Part shown: one piece after another, positions 2,307 to 26,801 of the stretch
How positions within the stretch are numbered: the first letter of the stretch is position 1
Layout: the number at the start of each line of letters is the position of its first letter
NCBI GenBank assembly: GCA_005787565.1
Contig: SYAP01000230.1
Span: 1-32,886 of the forward strand
Direction: 5' to 3'
Length of the DNA: 32,886 nt
Source: Verrucomicrobiaceae bacterium
GTDB lineage: Bacteria; Verrucomicrobiota; Verrucomicrobiia; Verrucomicrobiales; Akkermansiaceae
Translations under genes and position numbers: made by a program
Notes under the pieces: generated by a model
Told to the model about the DNA's origin: nothing
Seen by the model: the letters and a program-made list of their open reading frames with translations, nothing else
Database searches by the model: none

Positions 2307-5300
2307 ATGCATCGCCTCACCCGTCACCGCTGCTACGGCGCAGCACTGGTCGCCCTCCTCATCACCACCCTCATCCTTTCGATCAGAAAAGGTGAACCGC
2401 AGGAGTCCTCCGCCACCCGCCAAACCCCACCTCCAGGCCAACCCGCCACAACCCTCTCCACAGCGGAAAAAATCCAACCCACACCCACCTCCCGCAAATC
2501 CCGCGCCGCCACCCAGCCCCCACGCCAAATCCGCATGACCCACGGCGTCGAGCTCCAGCTCGCACTCGACGAAGCCATCACCCGCCAACCCGACGGCCGC
2601 GAAACATCCATCCCACTCGATCCCCCGGCCACCCTCGCCACCCTCGGAGATAGACTCGCCACCACCCGCTCCTCACCCGTCGCCTACCCCGTCGGCAAAG
2701 AAAAATCCCCCGCCAACCGCCGCGTCATCACCCGCGACCTCAGCGTCAACCTCGGCGAAGCCAACCTCACCCAACTCCTCAAAAACCACCGCCTCACCCT
2801 CAAGGAACGCCCATCCTACGCCCCAGGCTGGGTCATCCTCTCCGCCCCAGATCCCCTCGCCGCACTCGCCGTCATCGATGCCGTCCGCTCCTCCAACGGC
2901 GTCCTCGAAGCCGACATCCTCGTCGGCCGCCCACGCTTCAAACGCGCACTCCCCAACGACACCCTCATCTCCCAACAATGGCACCTCTCCAACACCAACT
3001 CCACCCGCACCCACGCCAACGTCGAATCCACCTGGAACTTCCCTAACACCGGATCACGCGGCACCGGCATCCGCATCGGCATCGTCGATGACGGCATCGA
3101 CCTCACCCACCCGGACCTCTCCCCGAACCTCGACACCACCAACGACCGCGACTTCCTCCAAAACGACAACGACCCCTCCCCCATCGTCGCCAACGAAGAC
3201 TTCCACGGCACCGCTTGCGCCGGAGTCGCCGCCGCCCGAGGAAACAACAACCTCGGCGTCAGCGGCGTCGCACCCAACGCCACACTCGTCGGCCTCAGAC
3301 TCATCTCCGACGCCACCGTCACCGTCACCGACTCCCAGGAATCCTCCGCCATGGCTTGGAGAAACGACATCATCCAGATCAAATCCAACAGCTGGGGCCC
3401 AACCGACGATGGCACCACCCTCATCACCGAACGCCCCGGCTCCCTCATCCTCGCCGCCTTCGCCAACGCCACCTCCACCGGACGCGATGGCAAAGGCACC
3501 ATCATCGTCTGGGCCGGCGGAAACGGTGGCAGCACCTCCAACCGCGACAACTCCAACTACGACGGATACGCCAACTCCATCCACACCATCGCCGTCGCCG
3601 CATCCAACTCCGTCGGCACCCGCTCCAGCTACAGCGAACCCGGCGCAAACCTCATCGTCTGCGCCCCATCCGATGGCACCAGCGCACAACTCGCCATCAC
3701 CACCACAGACCTCGTCGGCAGCGTCGGCTACAACACCGCCAGCGGCACCGCCGGCAACTACGCCACCGACTTCGGCGGCACCTCCTCCGCAACCCCCGTC
3801 GTCTCAGGCACCGCCGCCCTCATGCTCGAGAAAAACCCCAACCTCGGCTGGCGCGACGTACAGGAAATCCTCATCCGCTCCGCCTTCAAAATCTCACCCT
3901 CAGACCCCGGCTGGTCTAACAACTCCGCCGGATTCCACTTCAACCACCAGTTCGGCGCAGGCCTCGTCGATGCCACCGCCGCCGTCAACCTCGCCAATGG
4001 ATGGGTCAACCTCGCCCCGCAAACCAACATCACCGCCAACACCTCCGGCCTCCCCGTCGCCATCCCAGACAACAACCCCACCGGCATCACCCGCACCTTC
4101 ACCATCACCGACTCCATCCGCGTCGAACACGCCACCCTCCGCCTAACAGCCTCCCACACCAACCACCGCAACCTCGACATCACCCTCACCTCCCCCTCCG
4201 GAATGGTCAGCCAACTCGCCGTCTTCGACACCACCAAAGCCGGCGAATCCCTCACCAACTGGACCTTCTCCTCCGTCCGCCATTGGGGCGAAGGCTCCAT
4301 CGGCACCTGGACCATGACCATCGCCGACCGCGACAGCGGCACCACCGGCAGCCTCACCGCCGCCGAACTCCAACTCTTCGGCACACCCTCCACCCCCATC
4401 AACCAACCCCCGCAAATCACCGCCGCCTCTCTATCAGAAACCACCAACGCCTACGCAGACACCCCTCTCATCGTCTCCTCCATCACCGCCACCGATCCCG
4501 AAACCAATCCTATCACCTACCTCTATCAGTGGCAGTCCAGCACCGATGCCATCACCTTCACCAACCAGTCGGAAACCTCCGCCACCCTCTCCCCGAACCC
4601 ATCTAACACAGGAAAACTCTGGCGCTGCATCATCACCGCCAACGATGGCAACTCAAACAGCCAACCCTTCACCACCGCCGCCGTCAACCTCCTCACCCGC
4701 CCGCCCGCCACCGCCTCCCCCGGCGATCCCTTCACCTACACCAGCGGCCTCGTCCTCGCCGGCAACTCCGCCAACATCTCACGCCAAGCCATCATCAACG
4801 AATTCAGCCAAGGCCCCAGCGGCGGCTTATCCGAGTGGATTGAAATCCTCACCCTCCAATCCGGCAGCTTCCGCTACTGGGACCTCAGCTCCGACGGACG
4901 CATCCTCGTCTTCCAAGACACCTCCGTCTGGGACAACATCCCAGCCGGAACCCTCATCGTCATCTACAACGGCGCAAGTAAAGACAGCCGAATCCCCGCC
5001 GACGACACCAACCCATCAGACGGCGTCATGATCCTCAGCAGCACCAACCCCACCTATTTCGATCTGAGCTTCGACGACTGGCTCGATCTCGGAAACTCCG
5101 GCGACTACATCCAACTGAACGACGACGAGTCCACTCGCATCCACGGCCTCTCCTACGGCTCCGTCAACACCGAATCCCCCTACATCGGCTCGGTAGGCAG
5201 CGCACACTCCGCCCACTTCAACAGCGACGAAGACGCCGATGCCGACCTCGTCAGCGCCTGGACCGTCATCACCCAAGCCAGCAGCACCCCGGGCACCGGA

Positions 5301-5933
5301 AACAACACCACCAACTCCGCCTTCGTCACCGCACTTCGCAACAACACACTCAACACCCCCGCACTCTTCCGCCTCGGCACCGGCATCACCCTGCCTGCCG
5401 GCCTCTCCCTCAACACCACCACCGGCATCCTCTCCGGCACCCTATCTAACAGCATCCCCCCCGGCTCATACCCCATTACCATCGAACGCTACAACACCAC
5501 CCCCGCCACCGTCTCCCAATCCTTCACCCTCACCATCGCCGACGATCCAACCTTCGCCTCATGGATCGCCACCTTCGAACCCATCGAAAACGCCTCCTCC
5601 ACCGGCGATCCCGACCGCGACGGCCTCCCCAACCTCGTCGAATACGCCCTCGCCCTCGATCCCGAAACCCCGGAAAACCCCTCGCCCGTCATCTATCAGC
5701 CCGGCGTCTCCTCCATCACCCTCACCTACAGCGTCTCAAAACTCCACAACGACGTCACCCTCACCCCCGAATGGTCCACCACCCTCAACGGCTCCCAACC
5801 CTGGTCCACCAACGGCATCACCGTCACCATCCTCGAGGACAACACCACCAACCAGCTCCGCCGCGCCATCCTCCCCATCGATCCTCTCGATCCCCAACGC
5901 TACCTCCGCCTCCGCGCCAGCCTGACAAACTAA
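2307..5933 (+). CDS. Large secreted subtilisin-like (S8) serine protease with P-domain, lamin-tail-like region and Ig-like repeats
   Basis: 1208 aa; catalytic triad motifs IGIVDDGIDLTHPDL (Asp), FHGTACAGVAAARGNN (His), GGTSSATPVVSGTAALMLEKNP (Ser); P/Homo B-like segment (HTNHRNLDITLTSPSGMVSQLAV...WGEGSIGTWTMTIADRDSGTTGSLTAAELQLFG); lamin-tail-like segment (IINEFSQGPSGGLSEWIEIL...); C-terminal DPDRDGLPNLVEYALALDPETPENPSP calcium-binding-like motif. Confidence 0.92.
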   Translation: MHRLTRHRCYGAALVALLITTLILSIRKGEPQESSATRQTPPPGQPATTLSTAEKIQPTPTSRKSRAATQPPRQIRMTHGVELQLALDEAITRQPDGRETSIPLDPPATLATLGDRLATTRSSPVAYPVGKEKSPANRRVITRDLSVNLGEANLTQLLKNHRLTLKERPSYAPGWVILSAPDPLAALAVIDAVRSSNGVLEADILVGRPRFKRALPNDTLISQQWHLSNTNSTRTHANVESTWNFPNTGSRGTGIRIGIVDDGIDLTHPDLSPNLDTTNDRDFLQNDNDPSPIVANEDFHGTACAGVAAARGNNNLGVSGVAPNATLVGLRLISDATVTVTDSQESSAMAWRNDIIQIKSNSWGPTDDGTTLITERPGSLILAAFANATSTGRDGKGTIIVWAGGNGGSTSNRDNSNYDGYANSIHTIAVAASNSVGTRSSYSEPGANLIVCAPSDGTSAQLAITTTDLVGSVGYNTASGTAGNYATDFGGTSSATPVVSGTAALMLEKNPNLGWRDVQEILIRSAFKISPSDPGWSNNSAGFHFNHQFGAGLVDATAAVNLANGWVNLAPQTNITANTSGLPVAIPDNNPTGITRTFTITDSIRVEHATLRLTASHTNHRNLDITLTSPSGMVSQLAVFDTTKAGESLTNWTFSSVRHWGEGSIGTWTMTIADRDSGTTGSLTAAELQLFGTPSTPINQPPQITAASLSETTNAYADTPLIVSSITATDPETNPITYLYQWQSSTDAITFTNQSETSATLSPNPSNTGKLWRCIITANDGNSNSQPFTTAAVNLLTRPPATASPGDPFTYTSGLVLAGNSANISRQAIINEFSQGPSGGLSEWIEILTLQSGSFRYWDLSSDGRILVFQDTSVWDNIPAGTLIVIYNGASKDSRIPADDTNPSDGVMILSSTNPTYFDLSFDDWLDLGNSGDYIQLNDDESTRIHGLSYGSVNTESPYIGSVGSAHSAHFNSDEDADADLVSAWTVITQASSTPGTGNNTTNSAFVTALRNNTLNTPALFRLGTGITLPAGLSLNTTTGILSGTLSNSIPPGSYPITIERYNTTPATVSQSFTLTIADDPTFASWIATFEPIENASSTGDPDRDGLPNLVEYALALDPETPENPSPVIYQPGVSSITLTYSVSKLHNDVTLTPEWSTTLNGSQPWSTNGITVTILEDNTTNQLRRAILPIDPLDPQRYLRLRASLTN

Positions 5934-15892: not shown

Positions 15893-15997
15893 GCCAAGCG
15901 GAACACGATAGGCAACTGCTCCTTGTGATGATCAATGGCACTTCCCCGCTCGAAAACCCTCCGAAACCAATTCGCAAACGGCTCTTCCGATTCTTGA

Positions 15998-17164
15998 TTG
16001 TTCCCGCCAAGCTGTCATCAACCGGGAGTGAATCCGACACCTTCGCCGAATCCAATCCCGGCCGATCCGCAAACAGCACGCCTCGACCTCAAATCCCGCA
16101 CCCTGGCAGCCGCACCACCGGCGCACCATTCGGCGATCGCCTTCCTGATCGACCACATGCCGGCCGCAGACCTCCACACGCTTTCCCCGGACTTTCTTCG
16201 CAGGAACGCATCCCTCGCCTACGAAGCCAGATCCACTTTCTCATGGGCCACACAAATTCCGGAACCGATCTTCTTCAACGAGGTGCTCCCCTATGCCGTC
16301 CTCGATGAACCACGTGAAAACTGGAGGCCCATTCTGTTGGAAAAATTCCGCCCCATCGCATCATCCGCCAAGACCGCACGGGACGCCATGTCCCTCATCA
16401 ATACAGTCATCCGCTCGGAAACCGGAGTGATCTATCACACCGCACGCCGCGCACCCAATCAGGGACCTTTGGAATCCATCGAAAGCGGCATGGCCTCCTG
16501 CACCGGTCTCTCGATCCTGCTCATCGATGCCCTCCGCGCCGTGGGTCTGCCCGCACGGATCGTCGGAACCCATTGGACCACGATGCCCGGCAACCACAGC
16601 TGGGTCGAAGTCTGGCTGCCGGAAACACAAACATGGGCACTAACAGAATACACACCCCACCGCGATGGCCTCGACCACGCGTGGTTCATCCCGGATGCCG
16701 CACGAGCCATTCCGGGCGATCCACTGCACGGAGTTTTCGCCTCCACCTGGCAACGCGTCGATAAAACCCACTTCACCCTCGCATGGAACCTCGAAGACCG
16801 CAGCCTTCCTGCCCTCGATGTGACCGATCGATACATCGCCCTCGGCCGCAACTCGCTGCCCGGGCCCGGTGAATGCGCACTCCGCATCGAAGCAATCATC
16901 GCAGGCCTCGAAGGCAGCGAATCACGCCGCCCCACCGAAATCGAAGTGCGCTGCGACGGCGAGGTTGTCGCACGCGGAATCTCTCCCTCCACCGGGGACG
17001 ACATGAACCAGTTCCTCTATCTCATCGTGAAAAACGGACGGATCTACCAAGTGGTTTCGCTTTCGCAAGGTGCCGTCCTCGCCTCCGCGGAAATCGCCAC
17101 CGACGGCATCTCCCAACTCTGGAAACTTTCACTCACAGTCCCACCCCCACCCAACCAACCATGA
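15998..17164 (+). CDS. Transglutaminase-like (papain-fold) domain protein
   Basis: Core MASCTGLSILLIDALRAVGLPARIVGTHWTTMPGNHSWVEVWLPETQTWALTEYTPHRDGLDHAWF has the Cys and His of transglutaminase-like proteins. Non-ATG start (TTG at 15998, or an internal GTG) is uncertain. Confidence 0.8.
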   Translation: MFPPSCHQPGVNPTPSPNPIPADPQTARLDLKSRTLAAAPPAHHSAIAFLIDHMPAADLHTLSPDFLRRNASLAYEARSTFSWATQIPEPIFFNEVLPYAVLDEPRENWRPILLEKFRPIASSAKTARDAMSLINTVIRSETGVIYHTARRAPNQGPLESIESGMASCTGLSILLIDALRAVGLPARIVGTHWTTMPGNHSWVEVWLPETQTWALTEYTPHRDGLDHAWFIPDAARAIPGDPLHGVFASTWQRVDKTHFTLAWNLEDRSLPALDVTDRYIALGRNSLPGPGECALRIEAIIAGLEGSESRRPTEIEVRCDGEVVARGISPSTGDDMNQFLYLIVKNGRIYQVVSLSQGAVLASAEIATDGISQLWKLSLTVPPPPNQP

Positions 17165-18540
17165 AATCCCGTAGCCAACTGCTCCTTTCGATCACCTCCT
17201 CACTCATCATCGCCGCGTCACTGGTAAACTCCGCCGCAGCGGCAGGCTATGCCATCGTCGTCTCCGCAGGCACCCGCGCCGATCCCGGATGGAGCAAAGT
17301 GGTGGACGCCCTCAAGGAAAAGCACAACGGTGAAATTCATATCTATCAGAATTCCGTCACCGAGGCGCTGCCCGCCCTGCGTGAACAGTTTCCCGCCCAC
17401 ACCTGCTTCGTCGCCACCCCCTCGGAAGCCGGAAAGGACTTCGTCGCCGCCGTCCACCAACTCGCCCGGAAACTCGACGGCGACCCATACACCGACGGCC
17501 TCTGGGGCATTCTAACAGGATACGATGCCGCCAACGCCCTCCGCATCGCCTCCCACCGCGAACCCTTGACCGTCCGCAAGGTCGCATCAGGCACCGACGT
17601 CGCCCTCGAAAAAATCGAGGAAGGAATCTGGTACTGCGAACTCAAGCAGAACCACATGGTCCGAAAGGTGAAAAACGGCAACCCGACTCCGGATAAGGCA
17701 CCGGACGACACCACCAAGCCCCTCGTCGACACGCTCAACGAATACCACGCCGACTGCTTCGTCACCTCCGGCCACGCCACCGAACGCGATTGGCAAATCG
17801 GTTTCCGGTACGAAAACGGATACTTCCGCTGCAAGGACGGCATCCTCTTCGGGCTCGATACCAAAGGCACCCAACACCCGGTGAACTCACCGAACCCCAA
17901 GGTCTATCTCCCAATCGGCAACTGCCTCATGGGCCACATCGACGGACCCGACGCCATGGCACTCGCCTTCATGAACAGCGCCGGAATCTATCAGATGATG
18001 GGCTACACAGTCCCCACCTGGTACGGATACGGCGGTTGGGGCTGCCTCGACTATTTCATCGAGCAACCCGGCCGCTACACCTTCGCACAAGCCGTCTTCG
18101 CAAACCATGCCGCCCTGATCCACCGCATCCAACCGGACTTCACCCTCGATGGAAAAAAGCTCGGCCCGCAGGACACCCAGGGCTTGCTCCACGATCGCGA
18201 TGTCGTCGCCTTCTACGGCGACCCCGCATGGATCGCCCGCATGGCCCCCGCAAAAACCTCGTGGAGCCAGCAACTCACCGAAAACAACGGCGTCTTCACC
18301 TTCGAGATCCTCCCCAACCTTGGCGAAAAATCCTTCGACCCCGTCAACACCAACGGCTCCCAACGCGGCGGCAGACCCATCATCGAGTTCCTCCCATCCC
18401 GCCTCAAAAACGTCAAAATCATCGAAGGAAACGACCTCCAACCCGTCATCACCGACGATTTCATCCTCGTCCCCAACCCGCAAACCTGCGACCCGTCACG
18501 GAAATACAAGATCGTCTTCAGCGCGGACCCCATCCCCTGA
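17161..18540 (+). CDS. Secreted protein of uncertain family; possible gingipain/caspase-like (clan CD) cysteine peptidase fold
   Basis: ATG at 17161 (MKSRSQLLLSITSSLIIAASLVNSAAAA signal peptide) overlaps the upstream stop (ATGA). VDTLNEYHADCFVTSGHATERDW (putative catalytic His) and KVYLPIGNCLMGHIDGPDAMALAFMNSAGIYQMMGYTVPTWYGYGGWG (putative Cys after a hydrophobic strand) have clan CD-like order. Confidence 0.6.
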   Translation: MKSRSQLLLSITSSLIIAASLVNSAAAAGYAIVVSAGTRADPGWSKVVDALKEKHNGEIHIYQNSVTEALPALREQFPAHTCFVATPSEAGKDFVAAVHQLARKLDGDPYTDGLWGILTGYDAANALRIASHREPLTVRKVASGTDVALEKIEEGIWYCELKQNHMVRKVKNGNPTPDKAPDDTTKPLVDTLNEYHADCFVTSGHATERDWQIGFRYENGYFRCKDGILFGLDTKGTQHPVNSPNPKVYLPIGNCLMGHIDGPDAMALAFMNSAGIYQMMGYTVPTWYGYGGWGCLDYFIEQPGRYTFAQAVFANHAALIHRIQPDFTLDGKKLGPQDTQGLLHDRDVVAFYGDPAWIARMAPAKTSWSQQLTENNGVFTFEILPNLGEKSFDPVNTNGSQRGGRPIIEFLPSRLKNVKIIEGNDLQPVITDDFILVPNPQTCDPSRKYKIVFSADPIP

Positions 18541-25703: not shown

Positions 25704-26735
25704 TCATTCCTCAGGTTGCGGCTTCAGCGGGCGGTCGACCAAAAATTTCCATCCCCATCCACCATCCCAGGCGTGGATTTTCTTTCCGTCCTCCCACTTG
25801 GATGCTGTTAGACCAGTCTTCACCCGGTATGCGGCGCGCAACCGGTCGTCCGTGATGCGGATGACGAAAAAACCGACATCGGTGTGGCCGTCGTTGATCC
25901 AGTGGATCGGCTTGGCACCCTCATCCGGTGCCCATTTGCCGATACCCGTGCCGGTATGGCCGAATAGATAGAGGACTAACTGATAGGGCTCCACAACCTG
26001 ATGAAATGCTTTCCAATCCTCCTCGCACCACCAATTCGTGTCGAATCCGCAATGCGCCGCAATCACCACGGGACGCCCGCTTTTCCCAACTTTCTCCGCC
26101 AGATCCAGCTTCAAAAACGACAGCGCGTCCTGCGGATCATGCCACACTGGCGAATACCGGACGCTCTGATGCTGCGCGTCCGCCGGATAGATGTTGAGTT
26201 GCACGAAATGCACGTCCTCCCAATCCCACGAATAGTGCAATCCGTTCGCGGAGACATGGCTGATCAGCCCCTTTTCCTTCCGGATGCGGTTGCGCTCGAT
26301 GATCATCGCCTGGGTGCTGAATCCATGCTTCTCACGCCCCACCGGCGGTCCGTCATGATTGCCGAAACCCTCGAAAACCGGGATGGTTAGAAGCCCGTCG
26401 CTGCCATCCAAGCCGAAATCCCTGACAAACATGCCGAACTGCTCGCGGGTGACGTTGCGCCCGTTCCGCAGGCGATCGCCGTCATCTATCAGATCCCCCG
26501 GCATCAGCAGTCCTTGGGGTTTCGCAATCGGCCCGCCACCAAGTTCCTGGGGCCAGGACTCCTCATGCATCCGGTTCATTTCGATGACCGAAGCGCGGAT
26601 CAGATCGTTGTGATGACCTTGCTTGTGATCATTTTCCCGATAATGGCTGTCCGAAGTGGAAAGAAATGTTAGATCGCGCGCGTCGGTCGTCGTGATCGTC
26701 AGGCAGCCGAACAGAAGGTGGGCCAGGGTTTTCAT
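25704..26735 (-). CDS. Secreted calcineurin-like metallophosphoesterase
   Basis: Start MKTLAHLLFGCLTITTTDA at 26735; LTFLSTSDSHYRE, LLMPGDLIDDGD, FEGFGNHDGPP, VVIAAHCG, LYLFGHTGTG match the metallophosphoesterase metal-binding motifs. Confidence 0.9.
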   Translation of the reverse strand: MKTLAHLLFGCLTITTTDARDLTFLSTSDSHYRENDHKQGHHNDLIRASVIEMNRMHEESWPQELGGGPIAKPQGLLMPGDLIDDGDRLRNGRNVTREQFGMFVRDFGLDGSDGLLTIPVFEGFGNHDGPPVGREKHGFSTQAMIIERNRIRKEKGLISHVSANGLHYSWDWEDVHFVQLNIYPADAQHQSVRYSPVWHDPQDALSFLKLDLAEKVGKSGRPVVIAAHCGFDTNWWCEEDWKAFHQVVEPYQLVLYLFGHTGTGIGKWAPDEGAKPIHWINDGHTDVGFFVIRITDDRLRAAYRVKTGLTASKWEDGKKIHAWDGGWGWKFLVDRPLKPQPEE

Positions 26736-26801
26736 GGGATTCACCCCACGGATACGCTTGCATCGGGCGATTGTTCCAAATGCATGAAACCGCATGCAAA
26801 A

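Follow-up and report, generated by a model that had tools for sequence, protein, structure and literature searches.

C25-type peptidases and transglutaminase-like proteins are both already known kinds of protein. The C25 family (PF01364) includes the gingipains and PorU, and gingipain R is built from an N-subdomain, a caspase-like subdomain with the His and the Cys at two strand ends, and an 84-residue Ig-like domain (PMC4357240). PorU has the C25 clan CD fold and a surface location, and acts as a dedicated transpeptidase alongside secretion partners. Transglutaminase-like proteins of the Transglut_core type (PF01841) have a core with Cys and His motifs and an acidic third residue. The locus described here brings the two kinds together. 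In the window, by which we mean the whole stretch of 32,886 nucleotides that was analysed (a contig of 32.9 kb from a draft genome of 4.0 Mb that is 78% complete), two open reading frames follow one another on the plus strand, at 15998-17164 and then 17161-18540. The first encodes a transglutaminase-like protein, while for the second our results support a divergent C25-like (clan CD) presumed cysteine enzyme. The features of the locus are the following.

15995-15997, plus strand: in-frame TGA directly 5' of the TTG start of the first gene (sequence; N-termini of relatives)
15998-17164, plus strand: transglutaminase-like protein, 388 aa from TTG, with Pfam Transglut_core and homology to relatives from about residue 22
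16499-16501, plus strand: Cys168 (ASCTG), presumed transglutaminase nucleophile (sequence motif)
16595-16597, plus strand: His200 (GNHSW), presumed catalytic His (sequence motif)
16646-16648, plus strand: Glu217 (WALTEY), presumed third acidic residue instead of Asp, kept in relatives and in L108
17161-17164, plus strand: ATGA stop/start overlap, with the ATG at 17161-17163 and the TGA at 17162-17164
17161-18540, plus strand: exported C25-like (clan CD) presumed cysteine peptidase, 459 aa, of an unnamed family (alignment, hhalign, AlphaFold2)
17161-17247, plus strand: signal peptide region, MKSRSQLLLSITSSLIIAASLVNSAAAAG (sequence; hydrophobic N-termini in most family members)
17248-17553, plus strand: N-terminal alpha/beta subdomain, residues 30-131, with DPYTDxxWGILTG (AlphaFold2 secondary structure; conservation)
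17773-17775, plus strand: His205 (TSGHATER), invariant in 36 of 36 sequences and aligned with the invariant His of C25
17923-17925, plus strand: Cys255 (GNCL), invariant in 36 of 36 sequences and aligned with the invariant Cys of C25
18214-18231, plus strand: YGDPAW motif closing the catalytic subdomain; a similar GDP motif ends C25 members
18262-18537, plus strand: C-terminal beta-strand domain, residues 368-457 (AlphaFold2), in the position that the IgSF domain has in gingipain R (PMC4357240)

Searches of Pfam, NCBIfam, PADLOC and PDB sequences gave nothing significant for the second protein; none of the PADLOC defence-system models matched, the PDB sequence search gave no match with either the protein or its profile, and the family had no match on plasmids or viral contigs. 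The second open reading frame is nevertheless kept over its full length by dozens of genomes, so it is not a chance one. The family is large, with members in Verrucomicrobiota, Kiritimatiellota and Planctomycetota, and the metagenome-assembled genomes (MAGs) that carry it are named Planctomycetaceae, Phycisphaeraceae, Opitutia, Verrucomicrobiales, Kiritimatiellales and Akkermansiaceae. Of the 388 genomes sampled from the window's phylum, 73 have it, and so do 45 of the 246 in a sample centred on a Phycisphaeraceae MAG, where some matches comprise the N-terminal domain only. Within the window's genus it is patchy (14 of 73), and the closest relatives of the window's gene, which include sequences from Planctomycetota, are about 60% identical to it. 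In an alignment of 36 members Gly253-Asn254-Cys255-Leu256 is invariant, and DPYxDxxWGIxTG and YGDP are strongly kept.

The decisive evidence on the kinship of the family comes from profile-profile comparison: with hhalign it aligned to 21 C25 members from the phylum with a score of 59 and a probability of 92.5% (P 5e-7), over positions 33-380 on 1-339 and end to end at lower stringency; reversed or column-shuffled C25 profiles scored 14-21. His205 and Cys255 fall in register with the invariant His and Cys of C25, and the two families also share a GDP motif and export. The match derives mainly from the distant members of the new family, which gave 91%, compared with 29% for the close subset alone. 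Against caspases (C14) the score was 18 (0.4%) and against CHAT it was 12 (0.05%); caspase C14, CHAT and transglutaminase profiles were each below 1% probability and were ruled out as kin of the second protein. The differences from C25 are considerable. The His and Cys are 50 residues apart, compared with 23 in gingipain R (His221/Cys244, PMC4357240), the motifs are GHAT and GNCL instead of GHG and xC, and the Pfam C25 model does not recognise the window protein, which gave no match up to E 1 and did not pass the curated cut-off.

Intermediate proteins lend support to the kinship with C25. One of them, L242, which includes the N-terminal domain of the family, scores above the Pfam C25 cut-off (33.9 versus 23 bits) and is the only related protein to do so. 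Four sister proteins (L241, L244, L246 and L247) read GGHGMPWEI...FNYAC...ILYGDPA, and several Planctomycetota proteins combine the N-terminal domain of the family with a textbook GGHG...AC dyad and ILYGDPA. Two proteins from the Planctomycetota side (L239 and L240) have the N-terminal domain and GDPA with no obvious GHG/AC dyad by simple pattern, and are possibly inactive or divergent relatives.

An AlphaFold2 model of the second protein, made from 11 sequences (pLDDT 88, pTM 0.88), has an alpha/beta domain at residues 30-131, a second alpha/beta domain that carries His205 and Cys255, and a strand-rich domain at 368-457. His205 follows strand 199-202 and Cys255 follows strand 247-251, so that both lie at strand ends as is typical of clan CD. 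The order of the secondary structure fits gingipain R, with its N-subdomain, catalytic subdomain and C-terminal beta domain, and Foldseek gave no significant gingipain match. Foldseek searches of the model returned nothing significant against PDB (best E 7e-3) or against viral models, and the clan CD proteins separase and SAVED-CHAT appeared only among the weak matches. The clan CD-like nature guessed for this protein in the earlier note therefore gains support from the C25 profile match with the dyad in register, from the intermediate sequences and from the gingipain-like layout of the model.

The assignment of the first protein as transglutaminase-like, made earlier from its motifs, is borne out by Pfam Transglut_core, which matches residues 120-213 with an E of 2.2e-11 and a score of 44.4 bits, above the curated cut-off of 23 bits. 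It differs from Transglut_core in having Glu for Asp and an extra N-terminal region. Relatives in the same genus (G415, G399, G420 and a second, intact-looking copy that the window's own genome has on contig C122) are 50-53% identical. The earlier note had pointed to the Cys, the His and a third position reading WALTEYTP, with no DP, and had suggested that the chemistry may differ. Cys168, His200 and the WALTEYTP reading are as it described, but the suggestion of unusual chemistry falls, as Glu is common to the close relatives. The genus relatives, and L108 likewise, read TEY or VEY at this position, other members of the subfamily have Glu or Asp a few residues later, and the linked transglutaminases of Planctomycetota described below (L265 and L266) have Asp (WLDIDSG). 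An acidic third residue is thus kept, as Glu or Asp, and no special chemistry is needed. A structure model of the first protein, made from two sequences, was poor (pLDDT 39). Four other members of this transglutaminase subfamily (L101, L102, L103 and L109) are 735-800 aa long and end in an alpha/beta-hydrolase domain (DLH/S9-like, weak scores), which is another recurrent partner of the subfamily.

The junction of the two genes reads CAACC-ATGA-AATCCC, which confirms the noted overlap at 17161/17164 and makes co-translation of the pair plausible. The second gene has a convincing start in ATG 17161, where a clear signal peptide begins. The start of the first gene is less clear. TTG 15998 is doubtful as a start, since an in-frame TGA lies right before it and the signal peptide of the closest relatives is missing; a comparison of N-termini shows that this signal peptide sits exactly where the window protein stops being homologous. 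There was no intact signal peptide in any frame upstream of the gene between 15893 and 16100, and a weak candidate in the frame of an open reading frame at 15925-16308 suggests a frameshift or an assembly error. In the window copy the signal peptide is either missing or out of frame. The 5' end may reflect a damaged gene, a contig error or a product that is not exported. This atypical 5' end makes the finding weaker for this particular window.

Conservation of the pair was the check proposed in the earlier note, and its outcome is mixed. None of 13 other members of the genus that have the second gene carries a transglutaminase of the subfamily within several kilobases, so the overlapping gene pair as such is not kept, but the domain pair recurs in distant lineages. 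Fusions with the C25-like domain first and the transglutaminase second were found in L047, L049, L074, L075, L078, L038 (partial), L261 and L268, and fusions in the opposite order in L068, L069 and L265, the last with TPR repeats between the domains. Adjacent separate genes occur in the window, in L266 and in L260. In L266 the transglutaminase precedes the C25-like gene, as in the window, with 1 base from the stop to the ATG; in L260 the order is opposite and the frame of the second gene is broken by Ns. A linked transglutaminase is present in 13 of the 60 rows of a tree of C25-like family members and absent from 47, and the tree forces at least 8 gains or losses of the linkage. The linked transglutaminases span several subfamilies (the A3-type and those of L261, L265 and L268), and this variation in the partner indicates repeated joining and not a single inherited cassette. 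There are about 7 transglutaminase genes in the 4 Mb genome, and by our own rough estimate chance would place a transglutaminase next to a given gene in about 0.4% of loci. Among 50 neighbours of the C25-like family there was no conserved operon other than that with the transglutaminase.

The two families also occur together at the level of genomes. Both were present in 52 genomes (of 73 with the C25-like family and 67 with the transglutaminase subfamily), where 12.6 were expected. The number of shared genera was 15, compared with 2.3 expected, and 10, compared with 1.4 expected, once the genera with a linked pair were removed, although counting by genus removes the kinship of genomes from these figures only in part. 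C25 proper and C14, used as controls, had no excess of co-occurrence with the transglutaminase subfamily. The functional link that had been supposed for the two enzymes is thus upheld by fusions and adjacent genes in several lineages and by co-occurrence, and the C25-like and transglutaminase domains very probably work together.

We tentatively favour, with somewhat less than even confidence, an exported two-enzyme thiol-peptidase module with a shared substrate that breaks down exogenous (glyco)protein. The signal peptide of the second gene would send the C25-like enzyme out of the cytoplasm, where it would cut a protein or peptide by means of a dyad formed by His205 and Cys255. The papain/transglutaminase-fold enzyme encoded by the first gene, with Cys168, His200 and Glu217 as its putative active residues, would then target an amide bond in that protein or peptide and most probably hydrolyse it, and both steps would serve breakdown and uptake of exogenous (glyco)protein. 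This scheme presumes that both proteins are enzymatically active, that the substrate is shared and that the window transglutaminase is exported. The window copy has no recognisable signal peptide, and the two products may therefore occupy different compartments. The broader suggestion, of a system that processes peptides or crosslinks in two steps, is reasonable though tentative. That the process would be degradation and not tailoring is suggested, as a weak and circumstantial indication, by fusions of the C25-like domain to an M16 metallopeptidase (L061, L063) and to GH127 (L058), and by the lack of a steady substrate-like neighbour. One fusion, to a Ser/Thr kinase (L254), speaks against this reading.

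Covalent tailoring would use the same enzymes to a different end, with a transpeptidase that works like the PorU of Bacteroidota and an isopeptide-forming transglutaminase anchoring or cross-linking surface proteins. The PorU sortase belongs to C25 (PMC8545088, PMC4560394), transglutaminases are capable of cross-linking, and the module is exported with a swappable partner. However, there was no conserved substrate, sorting-signal or secretion gene among the neighbouring genes scanned, nor any counterpart of the secretion partners of PorU, and the M16 and GH127 fusions point to breakdown, so that we consider tailoring unlikely. Its most ambitious form, an unrecognised exported machine for tailoring surface proteins in Planctomycetota, Verrucomicrobiota and Kiritimatiellota that works without type IX secretion, appears very unlikely; in it the PorU-like C25-like enzyme would cleave and transfer proteins, and the transglutaminase-fold partner would form or edit isopeptide bonds. 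It is also conceivable that one of the two enzymes controls the other, through zymogen maturation or inhibition, and that outside substrates are handled by a single member of the pair. In clan CD, regions attached to the enzyme commonly activate it or keep it self-inhibited (PMC4357240), and such self-processing would explain fusions in both orders, but the linkage of several transglutaminase subfamilies is easier to reconcile with a shared substrate than with a specific regulator and most members of the C25-like family stand alone, which leaves this explanation decidedly improbable.

The window itself may be a poor example of a real association, if here a C25-like gene was acquired behind a 5'-damaged transglutaminase gene and the copy is accidental or decaying. 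The missing signal peptide and the stop codon directly upstream would be in keeping with this, as would the intact-looking second copy on contig C122, the patchiness of the C25-like family in the genus and the finding that the closest relatives of the second gene have no linked transglutaminase. On the other hand, the 388-codon frame is open and keeps all presumed catalytic residues, the overlap is a classic coupled junction, the tight transglutaminase-then-C25-like order recurs in L266, and the 5' end could stem from a sequencing error, the contig being a draft. We regard a decaying copy as rather unlikely; the link at the level of the families would hold even so.

As far as the libraries and literature searched extend, what is new is the unnamed C25-like family with GHAT and GNCL and its repeated joining with transglutaminase domains; the literature searched held no description of the family or of its pairing with transglutaminases. 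The family is a widespread group of presumed cysteine peptidases that is invisible to the databases searched, and its link to C25 extends clan CD. Through the repeated joining, two groups of uncharacterised exported proteins gain a definite partner and a function open to testing. They belong to a superphylum in which proteolysis at and beyond the cell surface is poorly understood.

The C25-like domain also has other partners. In an Akkermansia-like genus of the same bacterial family (g2), proteins of about 1500 aa (L061:5177-9736 and L063:5352-9770) consist of an M16 metallopeptidase with the same C25-like domain as their C-terminal part. They differ from the window in this partner, and their C-terminal third has no Pfam annotation. 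The transglutaminase relative of this genus (383 aa) is encoded elsewhere in the genome and not beside the M16-C25-like gene. The peptidase Amuc_0576 of A. muciniphila may be a fusion of this type, which is no more than a lead. Amuc_0576 was reported to be enriched in the outer-membrane fractions of cells grown on mucin (PMC4960237). The kinase fusion, in a Planctomycetota-side genome (L254:3207-7625), joins a Ser/Thr protein kinase domain to the C25-like domain and may represent a signalling use of the latter. Elsewhere in the window, a 363-aa open reading frame without a Pfam match lies on the minus strand at 25707-26795, and positions 2307-5930 encode a large exported subtilase with a P-domain and a putative Ig domain, another presumed secreted peptidase.
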